Positions 1-57,031 of a stretch of DNA of 64,000 nt are shown here, one piece after another (positions within the stretch are counted from its first letter, which is position 1; each line of letters starts with the position of its first letter). This DNA comes from Algoriphagus sp. NG3 (GTDB lineage Bacteria; Bacteroidota; Bacteroidia; Cytophagales; Cyclobacteriaceae), in the NCBI RefSeq assembly GCF_034119865.1, contig NZ_CP139421.1, positions 3,596,001 through 3,660,000 of the forward strand, given 5' to 3'. Below the pieces are notes generated by a model. The model did no database searches. It was not told the origin of the DNA and was given only the letters and a program-made list of their open reading frames with translations. A program made the position numbers and the translations under genes.

Positions 1-208
1 AAAAATCCCTGAAAAACCCCATTCTCATCCAAGAAATAAATAAATCAAAGATACCTCTGTATGAATGCTAAATCTCTTAATTTCAGATAAAATCGATCCT
101 GCCTGTCGATGGACACACACAGAGGAATGATTATACGCTGCGCAAGATTCCATCCCGTATCCTTCGTCACGGGACAGGTATGGCCTTTAAAAGACAAATT
201 ATAATCAG

Positions 209-955
209 ATGAAAACCTATTTTTCAAGCACATTCCTTTTGCTGCTAATTACAGTAGTTAAATCCTATAGTCAGCAGACAAATCCAATCTACGAATCCGA
301 AACCCTTCAAATTGAACAAATCAGCCCAAACACTTACGTCCACATCAGCTACCTGAATACGGATGATTTTGGGAGAGTAAGTTGCAATGGTATGATTGTC
401 ATCAATGACGGAGAAGCCTTGGTGTTTGACACTCCGGCAAATGAAGAAGCCAGTGTAGAATTGCTGGACTGGTTGGAGAACGGGCAGCAAACAAGCGTAA
501 AAGGGGTGGTGGCTACGCACTTCCACTGGGACTGTCTGGGTGGGCTGAATGAATTTCATGCCAGAGGAATACCTTCTTACGCGTCCAATAAGACTATAGA
601 GTTGGCAAAATCCGCAGGCTACCCCATTCCGAAAAATGGATTTAAAAAGAAAATGAAACTCAATACCGGAAATATAGAAGTGGTCAACCAATTTCTGGGA
701 GAAGGACACACCAAGGATAATTTCGTTGCGTTTGTTTCTTCAGACCATGTGCTATTCGGAGGATGCATGATCAAGGAGCTGGGCGCAGGTAACGGCTACT
801 TGGGAGATGCAAATGTTCCAGCTTGGTCAGCTACTGTCAGAAAGGTAAAAGCAGCTTACCCTGATGTCCAGATTGTGATCCCGGGTCATGGAAAGGTAGG
901 CGGGCCAGAACTATTGGACTATACTGAGGAGATGTTTGAAAAAGAGGGAAAATAA
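209..955 (+). CDS. Secreted subclass B1 metallo-beta-lactamase
   Basis: A 248-residue protein with an N-terminal signal sequence (hydrophobic residues 9-17, probable cleavage near residue 22), so it should act in the periplasm. All zinc ligands of the B1 group are visible. Zn1 is bound by H104 and H106 (motif HFHWDCLGG) and H167 (GEGHT). Zn2 is bound by D108, C186 (GGCMIK) and H227 (PGHGK). K189 sits where B1 enzymes carry the residue that contacts the substrate carboxylate, and N202 lies in the GDAN segment. Length is normal for the family. By family knowledge such enzymes hydrolyse beta-lactam rings; substrate range cannot be read from the sequence. It stands alone with no regulator beside it, and 45 bases of the 5' flank overlap nothing else. 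A chromosomal, species-specific enzyme is the likeliest status. Confidence 0.93.
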   Translation: MKTYFSSTFLLLLITVVKSYSQQTNPIYESETLQIEQISPNTYVHISYLNTDDFGRVSCNGMIVINDGEALVFDTPANEEASVELLDWLENGQQTSVKGVVATHFHWDCLGGLNEFHARGIPSYASNKTIELAKSAGYPIPKNGFKKKMKLNTGNIEVVNQFLGEGHTKDNFVAFVSSDHVLFGGCMIKELGAGNGYLGDANVPAWSATVRKVKAAYPDVQIVIPGHGKVGGPELLDYTEEMFEKEGK

Positions 956-2740: not shown

Positions 2741-4177
2741 CTACTTCTCCCACCATACTTTCGTATTGATATCATCAGCTCCCATTCGGGCTACGGCTAC
2801 TGAATAGTTATCCGGATTATTGATCTGCACGCTTACAGGATAGCGGAACCTTACCGGAGCCTGCTGATTGTTTAGCATCCCATCATTCTTTGGAAGTACA
2901 GGCAAACCAGTTCTGCGGTATTCAAACCACTGCTGGTAATCATTAAAATATAATCCAATATACTTCTGAAGCATTATTCTTTCCAGTGAGCCGTTGTAGG
3001 CAGCTTCAGGATTTTCAAAGTAGTCTTCAGTGATCTCAATTTCCCACTGTTCCATGGCAGCTTTTACGCCATTTTCATAATGGACTGCTGCATCTGTGCC
3101 TATCACGCCGCGTTGCGCCAATTCTGCTTTGATAAATTCCACTTCAGCATATGTCAATAGTAAGGAAATCATCGGTGCTTCCACCAAAGCTCTATTGTGG
3201 TTACTCGGAAGAAACTGGAATTGATTATCATTTCCGGCATATCCACTAGGGATTCCCCTGTACCCAATAGTAGTCGTACCATCAATATCCCTGGCTTGCG
3301 TCATAAACTTGGCGCGACGAGGATCCTCGAGATTATTCAACTGATCAGCGAAAAATTCAGAAATCGAACGGAAAGTCGTGAAATCTATCGCCCTGCCCCA
3401 AGGAGAAAGATTGGGAGTCACCCCAGTTATCTGCAGTATGGCCGATTCTGCGGTGTTTTCAAACACAGGATACTCATCTGGACTGTTGATGATCATAGCA
3501 AGCTTTTCAAAAGAGCTGAACTCTTCCCTGTTCGATACTCTTAGCAACAATCTCATGTGCAGGGAATTCGTGAATTTCCTCCATTTCATCACATCATTGT
3601 GAAAAAGAATATCATCCCCATAAATCATTGTCTGGCTTACATCATAAAGCGAATTTGCCCGCTCCAAATCCTGGAAAATCTGGGTATAAACGGCTTCCTG
3701 AGTATCAAACTGAGGCTGGAAGATCCCTTCTTCTGCACGGCTAGCCTCCACCATAGGTATATCCCCAAAGCTGTCTGTGAGCTGGCTGAGACTATAGGCA
3801 CGCAAAGTCAGCGCAATTGCTTCATAATTCACATCAGTATTGGAAATAGAAGAAGCTTCCATTTCCTTGATATTGATCAGCCATCTGTAATAGGTATTCC
3901 AGGTAGAATTACCCGCAGCTTCTGAAATATCATAGCGATGAATCCCTCCATTGGCACTGGGAAACGGCAAGGCTACTTGCATCACCTGGAAGGTGAAGGC
4001 GTCTGCCCTATCCGTACCAAAGCTGGATATGCCGTAAATAATCGGATTCAATAATGTACCTGGACTGATTTGATCGATCCTATTTGGATCGGTGTTGATT
4101 TTTTCAAAATCTCCGGTGCAGGAAACCGATGTCCACACCAAAGCTCCTAACAAAAGAGTAGCGATATATTTGTTCAT
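2741..4177 (-). CDS. SusD-like outer-membrane nutrient-binding lipoprotein (SusD_2 type)
   Basis: A 478-residue surface lipoprotein partner of the preceding SusC. The signal sequence ends in a lipobox with the lipid-bearing Cys at residue 20. The opening after the Cys (DFEKINTDPN) and the overall pattern resemble the SusD/RagB-like type 2 family (PF12771) rather than classical SusD. I chose the ATG at 4177 because it gives a standard lipoprotein signal and a 12-base gap after susC. An in-frame ATGATG directly abutting the susC stop (4189) would add four residues. The family binds the substrate on the cell surface and closes as a lid over the SusC barrel. The ligand is unknown; the neighbouring phosphoesterase hints at a phosphorylated compound. 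Confidence 0.92.
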   Translation of the reverse strand: MNKYIATLLLGALVWTSVSCTGDFEKINTDPNRIDQISPGTLLNPIIYGISSFGTDRADAFTFQVMQVALPFPSANGGIHRYDISEAAGNSTWNTYYRWLINIKEMEASSISNTDVNYEAIALTLRAYSLSQLTDSFGDIPMVEASRAEEGIFQPQFDTQEAVYTQIFQDLERANSLYDVSQTMIYGDDILFHNDVMKWRKFTNSLHMRLLLRVSNREEFSSFEKLAMIINSPDEYPVFENTAESAILQITGVTPNLSPWGRAIDFTTFRSISEFFADQLNNLEDPRRAKFMTQARDIDGTTTIGYRGIPSGYAGNDNQFQFLPSNHNRALVEAPMISLLLTYAEVEFIKAELAQRGVIGTDAAVHYENGVKAAMEQWEIEITEDYFENPEAAYNGSLERIMLQKYIGLYFNDYQQWFEYRRTGLPVLPKNDGMLNNQQAPVRFRYPVSVQINNPDNYSVAVARMGADDINTKVWWEK

Positions 4178-50359: not shown

Positions 50360-50390
50360 TTTGTTTTTAAAATTTGGTCTAGTACATTTG
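50360..50390 (+). promoter_or_regulatory. Promoter of the aromatic amino-acid operon
   Basis: TTTG (50360-50363), exactly 19 bases, then TACATTTG (50383-50390): full matches to both boxes of the Bacteroidota consensus. Transcription should begin close to 50395-50398, at or next to the leader-peptide ATG, so the leader may be read as a leaderless or nearly leaderless mRNA. Confidence 0.8.
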
Positions 50391-50394
50391 GCAC

Positions 50395-50490
50395 ATGTTA
50401 AAAACAGCAGCGACATATTTTACCTTCTTTTACTTTTACTTTCGAAGCCAAAATCGAATCGGTGCTGTGTATTGCCTAGCCAAAAACTAA
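50395..50490 (+). CDS. Phe/Tyr-rich leader peptide of the aromatic operon attenuator
   Basis: A 31-codon frame, ATG to TAA. Codons 8-16 read YFTFFYFYF, that is five Phe and three Tyr in nine codons, placed between a perfect promoter and a terminator hairpin ahead of genes that make phenylalanine and tyrosine. The whole peptide is MLKTAATYFTFFYFYFRSQN followed by RIGAVYCLAKN. Stalling of the ribosome on Phe/Tyr codons when charged tRNA is short would cover the 5' segment 50404-50411 and free 50454-50462 to form the antiterminator. It is too short and too skewed to be an ordinary protein. Classical pheA and trp leaders are the model. Confidence 0.85.
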   Translation: MLKTAATYFTFFYFYFRSQNRIGAVYCLAKN

Positions 50491-50522
50491 AAGAAAATAT
50501 AAACACATAAAGCCCGATTCGA
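50404..50522 (+). promoter_or_regulatory. Attenuator pairing segments (1:2 and antiterminator 2:3)
   Basis: Segment 1 (50404-50409, ACAGCA) pairs with 50463-50468 (TGCTGT). The base directly before that, segment 2 (50454-50462, TCGAATCGG), is a perfect 9-bp complement of segment 3 (50514-50522, CCGATTCGA), which is also the 5' arm of the terminator. The 1:2 and 2:3 pairings compete sterically, and 2:3 and 3:4 are mutually exclusive. Segment 2 lies inside the leader reading frame after the Phe/Tyr codons. Confidence 0.75.
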
Positions 50523-50540
50523 AAGAGTCGGGCTTTTTTT
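50509..50540 (+). terminator. Attenuator terminator before the DAHP synthase gene
   Basis: 12-bp stem (50509-50520 with 50525-50536, one G-U pair) closed by a GAAA tetraloop and followed by T to 50540. It lies 19 bases after the leader stop and 19 bases before the first structural gene, so it must be read through for expression. Confidence 0.9.
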
Positions 50541-50559
50541 ATTTAATGCTCAGAAAATT

Positions 50560-51657
50560 ATGAAAGCGCACAAACAAATCAAAGACTGGGGCTTGGGCCT
50601 GACCGGACCAACCATCATCGCAGGACCTTGCTCCGCAGAATCTCCTGAGCAGATCGAAAAGATCTGTCTGGAAATGAAAGAAAACAACATAGTTCCTTCT
50701 ATGTTCCGTGCCGGAATCTGGAAACCAAGAACCAGACCGGGAAGTTTCGAAGGTATAGGCGAGGAAGGGTTGAAATGGATGGAAATCGTCCGTCATCACC
50801 TGAACATCCCTATTACCGTGGAAGTCGGAAACGCAGCCCATGCTGAAATCGCCCTTAGAAACAAGGTGGATGTAGTATGGGTAGGTGCCAGAACTACCGT
50901 GAACCCATTTGCAGTTCAGGAAATCGCCGATGCCTTGAAAGGCACCGATATTCCTGTAATGGTGAAAAACCCGATGAACCCTGATCTTGATCTTTGGATG
51001 GGAGCTTTGGAAAGATTCCATGCAGTGGGTCTTGATAAACTGGCTGCAATCCACAGAGGATTCTCTGACGCTTACGACAAGAGATACAGAAACAAGCCAA
51101 ACTGGTCAATGCCGATGCACCTGAAGCGTGTATGGACAGGAATGGAAGTAATCAATGATCCGTCCCACATTGTGGGCAAAAGAGACGGTATTCTGGAGAT
51201 CTCCCAGAAAGCGATGAACTTCGGCCTGGATGGTTTGATGATCGAAACTCACCACGATCCGGACAATGCATGGTCTGATGCCAAGCAGCAAGTGACTCCG
51301 GCAAGATTAAAGGAGATCATTGCAGCCATTGACTTCAAGAAGCCGCTAGAATCTGAGCAGCCTAGCGAGAGACTGAATGATCTGAGAAGAGCTGTAGATC
51401 ATCTCGATGAACAATTGCTGGATATTCTTCAGGAAAGATTCGCTGTAATCGATCAGATCGGTGCGCACAAAAGAGAGCACCACCTTTCCGTATTTCAGTC
51501 AGATCGCTGGAAAGAGGTGATGGAAGGACGTACCGCAAAGGGGGTAGCCAAAAACCTAAGCGAGAAGTTTATGCGTGAGTTGCTCTATTGTATCCATGAG
51601 GAGTCAGTAAAGCGTCAGGAGAAGCAGCTGAGAGAGGCTGATCCGGTAAAGAAGTAA
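50560..51657 (+). CDS. Bifunctional DAHP synthase / chorismate mutase (type II)
   Basis: A 365-residue fusion. Residues 1-260 are a type Ib (KDO8P-synthase-like) DAHP synthase that joins PEP and erythrose-4-phosphate; IIAGPCSAES (19-28), FRAGIWKPRTRP (49-60), VWVGARTT and a late IETHHDPDNAWSDA (metal/substrate) are visible. Residues about 275-360 are an AroQ-type chorismate mutase (LRRAVDHLDEQLLDILQERFAVI, HKREH), giving prephenate. Such fusions let prephenate or chorismate feed back on the first step. It opens the operon under the Phe/Tyr attenuator. Confidence 0.95.
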   Translation: MKAHKQIKDWGLGLTGPTIIAGPCSAESPEQIEKICLEMKENNIVPSMFRAGIWKPRTRPGSFEGIGEEGLKWMEIVRHHLNIPITVEVGNAAHAEIALRNKVDVVWVGARTTVNPFAVQEIADALKGTDIPVMVKNPMNPDLDLWMGALERFHAVGLDKLAAIHRGFSDAYDKRYRNKPNWSMPMHLKRVWTGMEVINDPSHIVGKRDGILEISQKAMNFGLDGLMIETHHDPDNAWSDAKQQVTPARLKEIIAAIDFKKPLESEQPSERLNDLRRAVDHLDEQLLDILQERFAVIDQIGAHKREHHLSVFQSDRWKEVMEGRTAKGVAKNLSEKFMRELLYCIHEESVKRQEKQLREADPVKK

Positions 51658-51898: not shown

Positions 51899-52942
51899 GT
51901 GAAGCCAATTATCTTTTCTGAAAAGGCCTCTGTAGACCTGACCGCTGTTCTCAGTGAGATCAGATATTCCAGCCTTTTTATTCTAACAGACGAAAACACC
52001 AAGCAGCATTGCCTTCCTCTGGTAGAAGAGGTATTCCCTTCCAACAGCACCTTCTATACCATTGAAGCGGGCGAAAAAAACAAGTCCATCGCTACCTGCA
52101 TGCAGATCTGGGGAGCTATGACTGATGCCCAACTTGACCGTAAAGCACTATTTCTAAATATAGGCGGAGGAGTACTGGGTGACATGGGAGGTTTTTGTGC
52201 CAGTATATATAAAAGAGGAATCCGCTTTATCAATATGCCTACTACCCTACTTTCCCAGGTAGATGCAAGCGTAGGCGGGAAATTGGGAGTGGACTTTGAA
52301 GGATTGAAAAACCACTTGGGTGTATTCAATGAACCGGAAACGGTCATAGTGGCATCTGAATTCCTGAAGTCCTTGCCTGAAAATGAAATCCGGTCTGGCT
52401 ATGCTGAGATCATCAAGCATGGATTGATCAAAGACAGGGCGTACTTCGAAAGTCTTGATTTTGACAATTGGGCAAATTCCTATTGGACGCCATTGATCCA
52501 CCATTCTGTAGGGATAAAAAAAGCGGTGGTAGAAGAAGACCCGAAAGAAGCCGGACTTAGGAAAATCCTGAATTTTGGGCATACGATCGGGCATGCTTTC
52601 GAAACCTATTTTCTCGATGGCCCCAGACATTTATTACATGGAGAAGCCATTGCTGTAGGCATGATTTGCGAAGCGTGGCTGTCTCATAGGAAATTAGACC
52701 TTTCTATGGCCGAACTGAAACAGATTCAGGGCGCCTTACTGAAAGTATACGGCAAAATAGAAATCCAGGAAAGCGACCTTGCTCCTGTATTGGATTTTTG
52801 CCTGCAAGACAAAAAGAATGAAGGCAAAGAGCTCATGTTTTCTTTGCTGAGCACCATCGGCGAATGCACGTATAATATTCCCGTCACCAGGGAAGAAATC
52901 CGCGAAGCCATACATTATTACCAAAACCTATCTCATTCCTAA
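51899..52942 (+). CDS. aroB: 3-dehydroquinate synthase
   Basis: A 347-residue NAD- and metal-dependent enzyme turning DAHP into dehydroquinate, second shikimate step. GGGVLGDMGGFCASIYKRGI is the NAD loop. The metal ligands lie in SGYAEIIKHGLIKD, NFGHTIGHAFE and LLHGEAIAVGM. The start codon is GTG, and no ATG fits upstream; with the terminator in front this suggests deliberately modest expression. Followed after 26 bases by aroA. Confidence 0.95.
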   Translation: MKPIIFSEKASVDLTAVLSEIRYSSLFILTDENTKQHCLPLVEEVFPSNSTFYTIEAGEKNKSIATCMQIWGAMTDAQLDRKALFLNIGGGVLGDMGGFCASIYKRGIRFINMPTTLLSQVDASVGGKLGVDFEGLKNHLGVFNEPETVIVASEFLKSLPENEIRSGYAEIIKHGLIKDRAYFESLDFDNWANSYWTPLIHHSVGIKKAVVEEDPKEAGLRKILNFGHTIGHAFETYFLDGPRHLLHGEAIAVGMICEAWLSHRKLDLSMAELKQIQGALLKVYGKIEIQESDLAPVLDFCLQDKKNEGKELMFSLLSTIGECTYNIPVTREEIREAIHYYQNLSHS

Positions 52943-52968
52943 TACCCAGTCCCTTGAAAACCGAAACC

Positions 52969-54198
52969 ATGGAAGCTATTCATCTGGCTCAAAAATCAGA
53001 TTTCACCTCAACACATATTCCTCTACCCTCTTCCAAAAGTGAATCCAATCGGGTGCTGATCATAGATGCGCTGACTCAGGGGAAAAACACGCTGAGCAAC
53101 TTGGCAGAAGCGCGTGACACGCAGACGATGATCAGCTTGCTGAAGAAAAACCCACCGGTTTTTGACGTGTTGGATGCTGGCACCACTATGCGGTTTTTGA
53201 CGGCATATGCGGCAGTCACCAATCAAAATAAAGTAATGACCGGAACGGCTCGTATGTGTGAGCGCCCTATCGGGATTTTGGTGGATGCACTGAGAACAGT
53301 GGGCGCAGAAATCCATTATTTGGGTGTAGAAGGCTACCCTCCGCTGGCTGTGCATGGGCTAGCTGAGCAAACAAGCAAAACCGTGAAAATCCGTGGTGAT
53401 GTCTCCAGCCAATACATTTCCGCCATGCTGATGATTGCCCCTATACTTCCTCAGGGACTGGAAGTGGAACTGGAAGGAAAAGTCGGCTCCAGATCCTATA
53501 TAGAAATGACACTGGATACCATGAAGCAATTTGGCATAAGCTATTCGTGGGAAGGAAATAAAATCAGCATAGCTCACCAAGCGTATCAGCCTACTACTTT
53601 CGCTGTGGAAAGCGACTGGTCAGGAGCAGGATATTGGTTTAGCTTGCTGGCTTGCGCTGATTCCGGAGAATTATTTTTGGAAGGATTGAAAGAAAACAGC
53701 CTGCAAGGCGATTCGGCAGTAGTGGAAATCATGGGACAACTAGGGATCAAAAGCATGTTTCAGAACGGAGGTGTTTTATTGCAGAAAAAAGAAGTGACGG
53801 GATTGAAAAGCTGGGACTTCACCCACTGCCCTGATCTGGCCCAAACAATTGCTGTCACCTGCGCAATTTTAGGTCAAAACGCAATCTTTACCGGACTGGA
53901 AAGTCTGAAAATCAAAGAAACTGACAGGATATACGCTCTTCAGCAGGAATTGGCAAAATTCAATGCCGACCTGAAAGAAGTAGAACCGGAAGTATATAAG
54001 GTAATCCCATCTGTCACTATGCCTGCTGATGTAAAGATCCACACCTACGATGACCACCGAATGGCAATGGCCTTTATGCCCTTGCTCACTAAGACCCGTG
54101 TCAGCATCGAAGATCCTTCAGTAGTGAACAAGTCTTACCCAAGCTTCTGGAAGCATTGCCAACTTGCCGGCATTTCCGTTCTTAATCAGGGCAACTAA
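52969..54198 (+). CDS. aroA: 3-phosphoshikimate 1-carboxyvinyltransferase (EPSP synthase)
   Basis: About 409 residues from the ATG at 52969; the frame also has a TTG at 52954, judged less likely. Two-domain EPSPS fold: LPSSKSESNR (family LPGSKSxSNR), LDAGTTMRFLTAY (PEP-site loop), ARMCERPIGILVDALR, SSQYISAMLM and KIKETDRI. The P-loop-equivalent reads DAGTTMR where E. coli has NAGTAMR. It joins shikimate-3-phosphate with PEP. Its stop overlaps the pheA start (TAATG), so the two are coupled. Confidence 0.95.
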   Translation: MEAIHLAQKSDFTSTHIPLPSSKSESNRVLIIDALTQGKNTLSNLAEARDTQTMISLLKKNPPVFDVLDAGTTMRFLTAYAAVTNQNKVMTGTARMCERPIGILVDALRTVGAEIHYLGVEGYPPLAVHGLAEQTSKTVKIRGDVSSQYISAMLMIAPILPQGLEVELEGKVGSRSYIEMTLDTMKQFGISYSWEGNKISIAHQAYQPTTFAVESDWSGAGYWFSLLACADSGELFLEGLKENSLQGDSAVVEIMGQLGIKSMFQNGGVLLQKKEVTGLKSWDFTHCPDLAQTIAVTCAILGQNAIFTGLESLKIKETDRIYALQQELAKFNADLKEVEPEVYKVIPSVTMPADVKIHTYDDHRMAMAFMPLLTKTRVSIEDPSVVNKSYPSFWKHCQLAGISVLNQGN

Positions 54199-55022
54199 TG
54201 GCAAAGCTCAAAATAGCGATTCAGGGAGTCCCCGGCTCCTTTCATCACCAGGTCGCACTGCGCAACTTCGGAGAAAACATAGAAATACTAGATTTCACCA
54301 CCTTTGAACCAGTAGCCAGGGCAGTGGCTAATGGAGATGCGGATTTCGCTGTGATGGCGATAGAAAACTCCATAGCGGGAGCGATTTTACCCAATTACGA
54401 TCTTATCGATCGTTATGGCTTATCCATCCGTGATGAATATTATCTGCCGATTGGACATCAGTTTATGGCATTGCCGGGGCAGCGCATTCAGGACATTACT
54501 GAAGTTCGCTCGCATCCAATGGCTTTATTGCAGTGCAAAGCATTTTTTGCGCAGCATCCTCATATACAACTTAAAGAAGATACCGACACGGCTTCTGTGG
54601 CTCGTGATATCGCAGAAGGGAACTGGAAAGGAATAGCGGCTATTGCCTCGACTATTGCTGCTGATATTTATGGGATGGAGATTTTGGCACCGGACATTCA
54701 GACGGTGAAAAGCAATTTTACCAGATTCATCATACTTCAAAAAGAAGCTTTAACACAAGCTACACCAGGCAACAAAGCATCTATTAAAGTCACTATTCAG
54801 AACCAACAAGGTGGCTTGGCAAAATTACTGACCCTGATTGCAGAAAACGGAATAGATCTAAGCAAAATCCAGTCGATTCCCGTAATCGAAAAACCTTGGG
54901 AATATGCATTTTTCCTAGACTTGGTTTTTCAAGATCGTGACATTTTCTCACAGACAATTGAAGAAATTAGGGCTAGCTTTGGCGAGGTGAAAATTTTTGG
55001 AGAGTACCAAAGTAGAAAATAA
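54198..55022 (+). CDS. pheA: Prephenate dehydratase with ACT domain
   Basis: A 274-residue enzyme that turns prephenate into phenylpyruvate. Catalytic-domain landmarks: ENSIAG (56-61) and T175-R-F177 (TRF; the Thr is catalytic). ACT regulatory domain about 195-272 with GGLAKL (205-210). The second Phe-binding motif, ESRP in E. coli-type enzymes, is here QSIP (225-228), so feedback by Phe may be weaker or altered. Coupled to aroA by a one-base overlap; no chorismate mutase domain of its own, as that is on the DAHP synthase. Confidence 0.95.
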   Translation: MAKLKIAIQGVPGSFHHQVALRNFGENIEILDFTTFEPVARAVANGDADFAVMAIENSIAGAILPNYDLIDRYGLSIRDEYYLPIGHQFMALPGQRIQDITEVRSHPMALLQCKAFFAQHPHIQLKEDTDTASVARDIAEGNWKGIAAIASTIAADIYGMEILAPDIQTVKSNFTRFIILQKEALTQATPGNKASIKVTIQNQQGGLAKLLTLIAENGIDLSKIQSIPVIEKPWEYAFFLDLVFQDRDIFSQTIEEIRASFGEVKIFGEYQSRK

Positions 55023-55030
55023 GAAAACAC

Positions 55031-56176
55031 ATGAAAGGCTTTGCAGAACGAGTAGGAAGCGTGGAGGAATATTACTTTTCGGCCAAGCTCCGTGAGGTAA
55101 ACCAGATGATTGCGGAAGGCAAACCTGTGATAAACCTTGGCATAGGAAGTCCAGATCTGGCTCCGGACAAAGTGGTGGTGGATGCGCTGAGAAATACAGC
55201 TGAAAACAGTCAGTCGCATGGATATCAGAGTTATCAGGGAATCCCAGAATTGCGGACTTCTATCGCAAACTTCTACTCCAGAGAATATGGAGTCCAGCTA
55301 GACCCAACAAAAGAGATCCTTCCTATGATGGGGTCTAAAGAAGGGATCATGCACCTCAGCATGACCTTCCTGAATCCAGGAGATGAAGTTTTGATCCCTA
55401 ACCCTGGATACCCGACTTATACCTCAGTGACTAATTTACTGGGTGCAAAACCGGTTTTTTATTCGCTAGACCTATCAAAAGGTGGACGCCCTAATTTGGA
55501 GGAACTGGAAACCCAGGATCTAGGCAAAGTGAAGCTGATGTGGATCAACTATCCCCATATGCCTACGGGAGCTCCCGGTAGCAGAGCCATCTTGGAGGAT
55601 TTGGTCTCTTTTGCAAAAAAGCATGAAATCGTTCTTCTACATGACAATCCTTACAGCCATATCCTGACGAAGGAGCCCATCAGCATTCTGTCTATTCCCG
55701 GAGCTAAAGAAGTTGCCCTGGAACTGAATTCACTCAGCAAAGCTTTCAATATGCCTGGCTGGAGGGTAGGAATGTTGGTCGGACGGGAAGACTGGATAGG
55801 AAAAGTGCTGAAAGTCAAGAGCAATATGGATTCAGGAATGTTTTTAGGCATCCAGAGAGGAGCTATAGCCGCTTTAAACCTAGGCGAAAGCTGGTTTGCA
55901 GATGTACAGACCACCTATCAAAACCGCCGAAAACTCGTTTGGAAATTAGCCGATAAACTGGGGCTAAGCTATGACATACATGCTGCGGGGCTATTTGTCT
56001 GGTGCAAAGTGCCAGAGGGAAAGACTGCAGACCAAGTGGTGGACGAGTTACTTTACGAAAGGAATATATTTATCACACCGGGAAAAATTTTCGGCTCTGA
56101 GGGCAATGATTATGTGAGGTTTTCGCTTTGCATGCCTGAATTTAAGATCCTGGAGGCAATTAACCGCATAAAATAA
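55031..56176 (+). CDS. Class I/II PLP aminotransferase, probably aromatic
   Basis: A 381-residue fold-type I aminotransferase. The PLP lysine is K237 in SLSKAFNMPGWRVG, with N173 and D205 (LLHDNPYSH) as cofactor contacts and R245 plus the C-terminal RFSLCMP arginine for the carboxylate. It resembles LL-DAP/aspartate-type aminotransferases, but its place between pheA and tyrA makes phenylpyruvate, hydroxyphenylpyruvate or prephenate the likely substrate. Eight bases after pheA. Confidence 0.92.
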   Translation: MKGFAERVGSVEEYYFSAKLREVNQMIAEGKPVINLGIGSPDLAPDKVVVDALRNTAENSQSHGYQSYQGIPELRTSIANFYSREYGVQLDPTKEILPMMGSKEGIMHLSMTFLNPGDEVLIPNPGYPTYTSVTNLLGAKPVFYSLDLSKGGRPNLEELETQDLGKVKLMWINYPHMPTGAPGSRAILEDLVSFAKKHEIVLLHDNPYSHILTKEPISILSIPGAKEVALELNSLSKAFNMPGWRVGMLVGREDWIGKVLKVKSNMDSGMFLGIQRGAIAALNLGESWFADVQTTYQNRRKLVWKLADKLGLSYDIHAAGLFVWCKVPEGKTADQVVDELLYERNIFITPGKIFGSEGNDYVRFSLCMPEFKILEAINRIK

Positions 56177-56182
56177 CAGGTA

Positions 56183-57031
56183 ATGAAAAAACTACATATT
56201 GTCGGACTTGGACTCCTCGGAGGTTCATTTGCTTTGGCAGCAAAAAATAAATTCCCTGAAATTCTGATCACCGGAACGGATTCAAACGAAAAGAACCTAC
56301 AGGATGCAGAAAACCTTGGAATTATTCAGAAGGCTGCGGGTTTGCCGGACCCTGATACCGATATTGTCATTCTGGCCACTCCGGCTGATTCGCTGGGAGA
56401 TTTGCTTTTGAATACTCTTGATCATATAGGTGAGCACACCTTGGTATTTGATGTTGGCTCTACCAAAGCCAAGCTGTGTGAATTGGTGGCAAGTCATCCT
56501 AAAAGAAAGCAATACCTAGCCGCACACCCTATCGCAGGAACAGAATATTCGGGGCCAAAAGCAGCTTTTGGGGATTTGCTGGATCGCAAAGTCTTGATCA
56601 TATGTGAGCTGGAAAAAACAGACTTACAACTGAAAGAGAAGGCTTATCGGCTTTTTGACGCTTTGAATCTAAAATTGAGATTTATGGATCCTGAGGAGCA
56701 TGACCGTCATCTCGCATTTGTGTCCCACCTTTCTCATATTTCCTCCTTCATGCTGGGCAAAACCGTGTTGCAGAAAATGCAGGATGAAAAAAACATCCTG
56801 GATATGGCAGGATCCGGATTTGCCTCCACGGTACGTCTGGCCAAATCAAGTCCAGCCATGTGGGCTCCTATTTTGACAGAAAACAAAGTCAATATCCTTT
56901 CAGCACTAGACGGTTACATAACAAACTTGACTGCTTTCCGTGATAAAATCGCTGCAGGCGATGGAACTGGACTTTCTGATGAAATGGCTGAGATAAATAA
57001 GATCCGGGATATTTTGGATCTGGAAAAATAA
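56183..57031 (+). CDS. tyrA: Prephenate dehydrogenase
   Basis: A 282-residue NAD(P)-dependent enzyme turning prephenate into hydroxyphenylpyruvate, the tyrosine branch. Rossmann motif GLGLLGGS (8-15), DVGSTKAKLCE, AAHPIAGTEYSGPKAA with the catalytic-type His, and HDRHLAFVSHLSHISSFML. It lacks an ACT domain, so direct Tyr feedback is not obvious. Last gene of the operon, followed by a terminator. Confidence 0.94.
   Translation: MKKLHIVGLGLLGGSFALAAKNKFPEILITGTDSNEKNLQDAENLGIIQKAAGLPDPDTDIVILATPADSLGDLLLNTLDHIGEHTLVFDVGSTKAKLCELVASHPKRKQYLAAHPIAGTEYSGPKAAFGDLLDRKVLIICELEKTDLQLKEKAYRLFDALNLKLRFMDPEEHDRHLAFVSHLSHISSFMLGKTVLQKMQDEKNILDMAGSGFASTVRLAKSSPAMWAPILTENKVNILSALDGYITNLTAFRDKIAAGDGTGLSDEMAEINKIRDILDLEK

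Follow-up and report, generated by a model that had tools for sequence, protein, structure and literature searches.

The DNA analysed here, called the window, is a 64-kb stretch of Algoriphagus sp. NG3 and lies in a single-contig genome of 5.89 Mb. It contains an operon that begins with a gene for a fused DAHP synthase/chorismate mutase (DAHPS/CM), the closest named relatives of which were from Algoriphagus (identity up to 97%). A first-pass annotation of this DNA had read the operon as DAHPS/CM-aroB-aroA-pheA-aminotransferase-tyrA, and these genes were confirmed by Pfam. The divergent neighbour on the other strand encodes a Pfam proline dehydrogenase family protein, and between it and DAHPS/CM lies the element in question, the aromatic leader. 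As listed in Table 1, it consists, from 5′ to 3′, of TTTG, 19 nt, TACATTTG, 4 nt, the ATG of a 31-codon open reading frame (ORF), and a hairpin with seven T residues; DAHPS/CM starts 19 nt after the end of the terminator. Promoter, start codon (the predicted +1), control codons and switch were thus packed into about 180 bases. The promoter, 31-codon leader, Phe/Tyr run, 9-bp antiterminator and 12-bp terminator of the first-pass annotation were all found at the positions it had given.

Table 1. Features of the aromatic leader, the operon and a dispersed repeat (window positions, or locus handles for the repeat; MFE, minimum free energy).
Feature	Position	Strand	Basis
-33 promoter element TTTG	50360..50363	+	sequence; TTG at 19 nt (76) or 20 nt (3) from the -7 box in 79/79 leaders
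-7 box TACATTTG, Bacteroidota sigma-A consensus TAnnTTTG	50383..50390	+	sequence; last base G in 57/79 and A in 22/79 boxes; consensus according to PMC9723704
Predicted transcription start, A of leader ATG	50395..50395	+	box-to-ATG distance of 4 nt and C at -1
Leader peptide ORF, 31 codons + TAA	50395..50490	+	ORF reading, conservation
Control codons 8-16, YFTFFYFYF	50416..50442	+	F at codons 9, 14 and 16 and Y at codon 15 in 75/75 distinct leaders
Arm 1, pairs with 50459-50468	50404..50413	+	MFE structure; 23 doubly changed cells (shuffles: 10.8)
Arm 2, antiterminator 5′ strand, core 50454-50462	50454..50466	+	pairing, duplex energy, frozen codons CGA-ATC
Arm 3, antiterminator 3′ strand (50511-50522) and terminator 5′ strand (50509-50520)	50509..50522	+	pairing, comparison
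Arm 4 (50525-50536) and U-tract (50534-50540) of intrinsic terminator	50525..50540	+	sequence, pairing, comparison
DAHP synthase/chorismate mutase fusion, first operon gene	50560..51657	+	Pfam PF00793 and PF01817
aroB, 3-dehydroquinate synthase	51899..52942	+	Pfam
aroA, EPSP synthase	52954..54198	+	Pfam
pheA, prephenate dehydratase with ACT domain	54198..55022	+	Pfam
Class I/II aminotransferase	55031..56176	+	Pfam
tyrA, prephenate dehydrogenase	56183..57031	+	Pfam
Dispersed repeat	L352-L371 (G000, e.g. C1:85914, 1571529, 5560847); L006 about 2910-3000; L033:1-195; L248 about 190-300		

The leader ORF runs from its ATG (50395-50397) to its stop codon (50488-50490) and encodes the peptide MLKTAATYFTFFYFYFRSQNRIGAVYCLAKN. 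Codons 8-16 comprise five Phe and three Tyr codons (8 of 9), a mixture that suits the operon because its products include both amino acids. Both strands of the window were scanned for short ORFs (10-60 aa, ATG, GTG or TTG starts), and the leader was the only one with at least seven Phe or Tyr residues per nine codons.

Arm 2 begins 12 nt past the last base of the control codons. Its core pairs perfectly with 50514-50522 over 9 bp, and a GCT × AGC extension follows a one-base bulge. The whole antiterminator duplex (50454-50466 × 50511-50522) had an energy of -19.1 kcal/mol against a mean of -7.0 for shuffled sequences, and none of 500 shuffles was as good. The terminator (50509-50520 × 50525-50536) has 12 bp including one G-U pair, a GAAA loop and seven T residues from 50534. 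Upstream, 50404-50409 pairs with 50463-50468. The first-pass annotation had called this a competing pairing; the 6 bp are real, but competition with the antiterminator comes only from 3 further bp (50411-50413 × 50459-50461) beyond a G.G mismatch, because this extension is the sole part that overlaps arm 2. The fold of the whole leader (-36.5 kcal/mol) had a z score of -4.0 against dinucleotide shuffles, none of 200 being as stable. A segment after arm 2 (50470-50475, codons 26-27, TATTGC) had no identified pairing partner; its codon 26 was Tyr in all 75 distinct leaders described below and TAT in 74 of them.

For the DAHPS/CM gene, 329 relatives were found; the 330 bases upstream were inspected in the best 80, and the leader was present in 78 of these named loci. 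Genera named among the relatives include Algoriphagus, Aquiflexum, Cecembia, Cognataquiflexum, Arthrospiribacter, Echinicola, Mongoliibacter, Rhodonellum, Belliella, Litoribacter, Mongoliitalea and Lunatimonas. Of the two misses, one (L033) is on a contig that ends 195 bases upstream, where at least one copy of a dispersed repeat lies, and the other (L064, with a match spanning 1.6 kb) is probably an artefact of the longer match. In every one of 24 same-genus genomes, the own genome included, a covariance model detected a single strong copy (137-190 bits) and no second comparable one; in genome G011 a strong match lay directly upstream of its DAHPS/CM gene. Of 14 genomes of other families, 13 gave no match to this model at E 0.001 and one gave two weak matches, the better with 46.5 bits. 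Four same-genus genomes (G015, G021, G030 and G034) have, in tandem upstream, a further DAHPS/CM copy with 44-47% identity to the query, and in G021 and G015 the leader adjoins the downstream copy.

Removal of four identical rows from 79 leaders left an alignment of 75 distinct leaders, in which F9, F14, Y15, F16, R21, I22, G23 and Y26 were invariant; Trp occurred within codons 8-16 in five leaders. Such an alignment had been proposed as a check with the first-pass annotation: the Phe/Tyr run was kept and compensatory changes were found in arms 3/4 and 1/2, but arms 2 and 3 were frozen within the clade. Across the alignment the terminator was paired in 99.2% of cells, three of its pairs were changed on both sides, and it had 8 doubly changed cells against 1.4 in shuffles. 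The antiterminator was paired in 98.4% of cells. Its 5′ arm occupies codons 20-23, where R21 was CGA in 74 of the 75 leaders and I22 was ATC in all of them; in ten neighbouring ORFs CGA made up 13 of 167 Arg codons and ATC 113 of 273 Ile codons. R17, outside this arm, was coded by three different Arg codons. This freezing of synonymous sites therefore indicated a constraint on the RNA and not on the peptide. The 1:2 helix was paired in 77.5% of cells, with more doubly changed cells than in shuffles (Table 1); it was present in the MFE structure of the full RNA, yet disfavoured before arm 4 is made. Concerted change of arms 2 and 3 was visible only in more distant genera: in another genus of the same family (L125-L128 and L130) the leader and arm sequences were different but mutually complementary (e.g. 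AGTGAACCG with CGGTTCACT).

A wider sample of 79 stretches around DAHPS/CM genes, hand-picked from the listed matches and spread over families, hence non-random, was scanned for a Phe/Tyr-dense short ORF followed by a terminator within 450 bases of a gene. This stricter scan superseded a laxer one of 40 loci, which had yielded many chance ORFs. On the gene strand 24 candidates were found in 22 of the 79 loci, against one on the opposite strand as control. Candidates occurred in 15 of 20 class/phylum loci (19 of the same class and one of the same phylum only) and in 7 of 59 same-order loci (4 of 6 within the same family, 3 of 53 outside it). Antiterminators that beat at least 95% of shuffles were present in 26 of the 31 leaders tested. 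For a comparison of 29 leaders, overlapping secondary frames (L318:4864 and L321:4655) were dropped before counting, and the five leaders of the other same-family genus, a second leader of L153 and that of the window were added by hand; L129, nearly identical to L128, was excluded from this comparison and from the shuffle test. Phe and Tyr were mixed in all 29 leaders, and 12 also had Trp within a 12-codon run, although Trp makes up 1.3% of residues in the proteins of this operon. These Trp codons suggest that the readout may be more widely aromatic. At one locus (L153:4384-4690) two Phe/Tyr leaders stand in tandem ahead of a prephenate-dehydratase-like start, and a terminator-like hairpin follows each of them; the antiterminator of the second failed to beat 95% of shuffles.

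The folding of the 75 leaders was computed with an assumed ribosome footprint of 15 nt on either side of the P site, and a helix was counted as formed when its pair probability averaged more than 0.5. In transcripts that ended with arm 3, the antiterminator formed in all 75 leaders when the footprint was on any of codons 8, 9, 11-14 or 16; with the footprint over arm 2 it formed in none. In the full RNA the terminator formed in 74 of 75.

Ribosome-mediated attenuation is a classical mechanism, and three of its hallmarks were found here: a leader ORF with a Phe/Tyr run, predicted to be translated, an intrinsic terminator before the first gene, and an antiterminator that excludes it. From the observed anatomy, conservation, pairing and spacing we infer the following course of events in vivo. 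RNA polymerase would start at, or a base or two from, the A of the leader ATG, and a ribosome would load on the 5′ end while the RNA emerges and begin translation. When charged tRNA-Phe or tRNA-Tyr is scarce, the ribosome would stall in codons 8-16 and leave arm 2 open to pair with arm 3 once this has emerged; the 3:4 terminator would then come too late, and read-through would transcribe the operon. When both charged tRNAs are plentiful, the ribosome would move over arm 2, arm 3 would pair with arm 4, and transcription would stop near 50540. The 1:2 helix may act as a pause or protector hairpin.

Several results weigh against this mechanism. The antiterminator still formed in 71 of 75 naked transcripts cut at arm 3 and in 68 of 75 cut transcripts with the ribosome at the stop codon, and full-length RNA with a stalled ribosome preferred the terminator in 68 of 75. 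Equilibrium folding alone thus gave no switch, and timing (kinetics) would therefore have to decide. No covariation of the 2:3 helix was found in the 75 leaders of the Algoriphagus clade, because both arms are frozen there. The number of further pair types in the terminator was equalled in 92 of 500 shuffles; the 1:2 helix was unpaired in 22.5% of cells, and its count of covarying pairs (four) was equalled in 154 of 500 shuffles; all covariation counts are uncorrected for relatedness. Five of the 31 antiterminators tested (L174, L308, L319, L321:4655 and L153:4539) fell below the mark of 95% of shuffles. Finally, 52 of the 59 same-order loci, which lie outside the leader clade, had no candidate leader in the scan; either the feature is patchy there or a scan that starts from the DAHPS/CM gene misses the leader.

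Even so, the aromatic leader is real and conserved, and it is almost certainly a functional attenuator of a known kind. We consider it very probable that it is a ribosome-mediated transcription attenuator of the shikimate/Phe/Tyr operon and that it reads both charged tRNA-Phe and charged tRNA-Tyr. Control by ribosome stalling, as the first-pass annotation had read it, gained support from the conserved Phe/Tyr run, the frozen arm 2, the compensatory changes and the leaders of differing sequence elsewhere. Two traits are unusual, namely that the start codon coincides with the predicted +1 and that control codons for Phe and Tyr (sometimes also Trp) are pooled.

The invariance of several residues in all 75 clade leaders would also be expected of a TnaC-like arrest peptide, which is sensed in the exit tunnel through its amino acid sequence and not by codon-by-codon charging. 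In TnaC-like arrest peptides the amino acid order of the nascent chain is conserved across homologues. Across the genera and families of the 29-leader comparison, by contrast, the order of Phe, Tyr and Trp was scrambled and only their density was kept, as expected of a charging sensor but not of an arrest peptide; in addition, the synonymous sites of R21 and I22 were frozen, an indication of RNA pairing. We regard an arrest peptide as very unlikely. Slightly less credible still is an unregulated arrangement of a constitutive, leaky terminator and a small functional peptide. The conservation of both terminator and ORF would agree with this, but an antiterminator arm lies inside the ORF, is complementary to the 5′ arm of the terminator and has frozen synonymous sites; the arm of other genera differs in sequence yet complements its own terminator. 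Searches of Rfam with the leader found no family at the gathering score, with Phe_leader and Thr_leader matching below the curated cut-off. Membership of Phe_leader (RF01859) was rejected at 25.6 bits against a gathering score of 55, and a T-box riboswitch was rejected as well, there being no T-box among 11 Rfam matches up to E 5.

The start of the transcript was considered separately. In a flavobacterial start-site map, TAnnTTTG is placed at -12 to -5 (PMC9723704); the +1 predicted from this placement is therefore the A of the leader ATG. Of 79 leaders, 77 had 4 nt between box and ATG and two (Echinicola) had 5 nt, and the spacer occurred as 19 different 4-mers; the distance from stop codon to terminator, by contrast, varied between 18 and 35 nt. 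The ATG was preceded by C in 77 leaders and by T in two, whereas ordinary ORFs had C in 117 of 586. A pyrimidine ahead of a purine is the usual context of initiation. Among 78 ordinary genes with a box, the gap from box to start was 3-5 nt in only five, with a median of 26 nt. Promoter placement, spacing and the C at -1 support the prediction that the aromatic leader is leaderless, which the first-pass annotation had put forward tentatively.

Alternatively, the same attenuator might have a conventional 5′ untranslated region (UTR), with transcription starting at a site before the ATG. Of the mRNAs mapped in Flavobacterium psychrophilum, just 5.5% are leaderless (according to PMC9723704), and among 12 leaders of further loci with TAnnTTTG within 60 nt, seven had gaps of 17-35 nt. 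The other five had gaps of at most 8 nt, against 8 of the 78 ordinary genes (Fisher p = 0.013). In a second genus of the family (L125-L130), six leaders read by eye start 4 nt past a TAnnTTTA box, one of them with GTG, and four of the six have C at -1. The near-invariant 4-nt spacing, the C at -1, the rarity of such short gaps in ordinary genes and the TTG element conserved 19-20 nt from the same box all speak against a conventional 5′ UTR, which we judge improbable, though clearly less so than an arrest peptide or a leaky terminator. Two Phe/Tyr leaders, L125 (start at 1350) and L313:2857, taken in gene-strand orientation, have GTG 4 nt past a TAnnTTT box and are candidates for leaderless GTG starts.

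In the same genome, the trp leader (MKTNANKYWWWH...) starts 11 nt, the his leader (...HHFHHSS) 9 nt and the ilv leader (MYKVVILLSVIILIGF) about 42 nt from its box. Near-leaderless starts thus recur, but among the leaders read in this genome exact fusion of the ATG to the predicted +1 occurs only in the aromatic leader. A genome census of TAnnTTTG-N4-ATG gave 102 matches against 63 for the reversed control pattern. Of these, 92 were examined (the window's own match was outside that scan, and seven listed places and any unlisted ones were left out); 38 had ORFs of 6-75 aa, none with both a Phe/Tyr run and a terminator, and one of the 38 (L292) had a weak terminator-like hairpin. In another place (L181, G000:C1:577695-577709, minus strand) a Phe/Tyr-rich ORF, MFYYSRLYCHF, was seen 4 nt past a TAnnTTTG box, with no terminator within 300 nt.

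Other leaders were noted in the same genome (G000) and in further loci. For trp (WWWH) and ilv (VVILLSVIILIGF), leaders of classical appearance that have terminators lie in G000 at C1:4234027 (L216) and C1:5773286 (L227). The leader of the his operon, near C1:1423248 (L208, reverse strand) and also in L206, L207 and L209-L212, has a hairpin over its stop codon and then a conserved GGTG..GATGA..GATT..CACC element; no T-run terminator was seen, and three loci searched against Rfam gave no family at the gathering score. It is possibly a non-terminator type of leader control. Thr/Ile/Met-rich ORFs were read by eye upstream of an ORF found with the homoserine dehydrogenase family, MTTWIGTTITG in L248 (C1:5560600-5561600) and ..TGMMTTMITG in L249. 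The two loci share a GTACCCGCCCC stretch and, by eye, have no clear T-run terminator; in L248 an ACGGG-TTGAT-CCCGT hairpin lies over the stop of the ORF.

The dispersed repeat (Table 1) is about 92 nt long. It had 44 copies in the genome at up to two mismatches of a 20-mer, against none for the reversed control. It extends from ATGAAATCGAGCATG to ..ATGCGAGATTCCATGTGACC.., and where copies stand in tandem their distance is 91-92 nt. Twenty loci were read (two of which are the same place), and in 16 of them its end lay 21-24 nt before the ATG of a same-strand ORF of at least 100 aa. It has the look of an insertion at start codons that carries ATGAAA at either end. One copy precedes the ORF found with the homoserine dehydrogenase family in G000, and in A. 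yeomjeoni (L006) a copy lies between the terminator of the attenuator and the DAHPS start.

The similar leaders in 15 of the 20 class/phylum stretches suggest that attenuation of aromatic operons is widespread in the phylum, and also that the charging of several tRNAs can be pooled in a single leader. To our knowledge, it has been little studied how Bacteroidota couple transcription and translation tightly enough for attenuation, and the aromatic leader offers a compact, conserved and testable case. Bacteroidota are described as lacking Shine-Dalgarno sequences (according to PMC6847099). We raise the tentative idea, with somewhat more doubt than conviction, of a class-wide 'pan-aromatic' attenuator of Bacteroidia, in which Phe and Tyr, often with Trp, codons would gate the common aromatic-pathway operon. 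In Cyclobacteriaceae the leader would be fused to +1 because, without Shine-Dalgarno sequences, a 5′-terminal AUG would make sure that the first ribosome is on the RNA early enough to follow the polymerase as far as the decision point.

No description of this aromatic leader was found in the titles and abstract starts of the open-access papers searched, subscription papers such as a 2010 comparative attenuation study cited in PMC4833913 being outside the search. Like the enterobacterial pheA leader (RF01859), it combines a Phe-rich peptide, mutually exclusive antiterminator and terminator, and a Phe-pathway gene; it differs in its mixed Phe and Tyr codons, in the whole DAHPS-to-tyrA operon downstream and in its predicted leaderless start. 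Within the phylum, PMC9723704 mentions 'strong clues' for leader peptide attenuation upstream of amino acid biosynthesis operons in F. psychrophilum, the operons, leaders and start positions being unnamed in the passages concerned, and small ORFs reminiscent of leader peptides have been mentioned for Bacteroides thetaiotaomicron. The first-pass annotation had called a leaderless attenuator peptide unusual. This holds for mapped species of the phylum, where few mRNAs are reported as leaderless and about 3.7% as having 5′ UTRs under 10 nt, but leaderless attenuators are already known elsewhere. The trpL attenuator transcript of Sinorhizobium meliloti is described as beginning at the ATG of its leader ORF (according to PMC7298713), and is thus likewise leaderless, but it serves a Trp operon and has a 14-aa peptide that also acts in trans. 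The leaderless polycysteine short ORFs of mycobacteria (known here through the reference list of PMC9094748) are likewise amino acid-responsive attenuators, but respond to cysteine.

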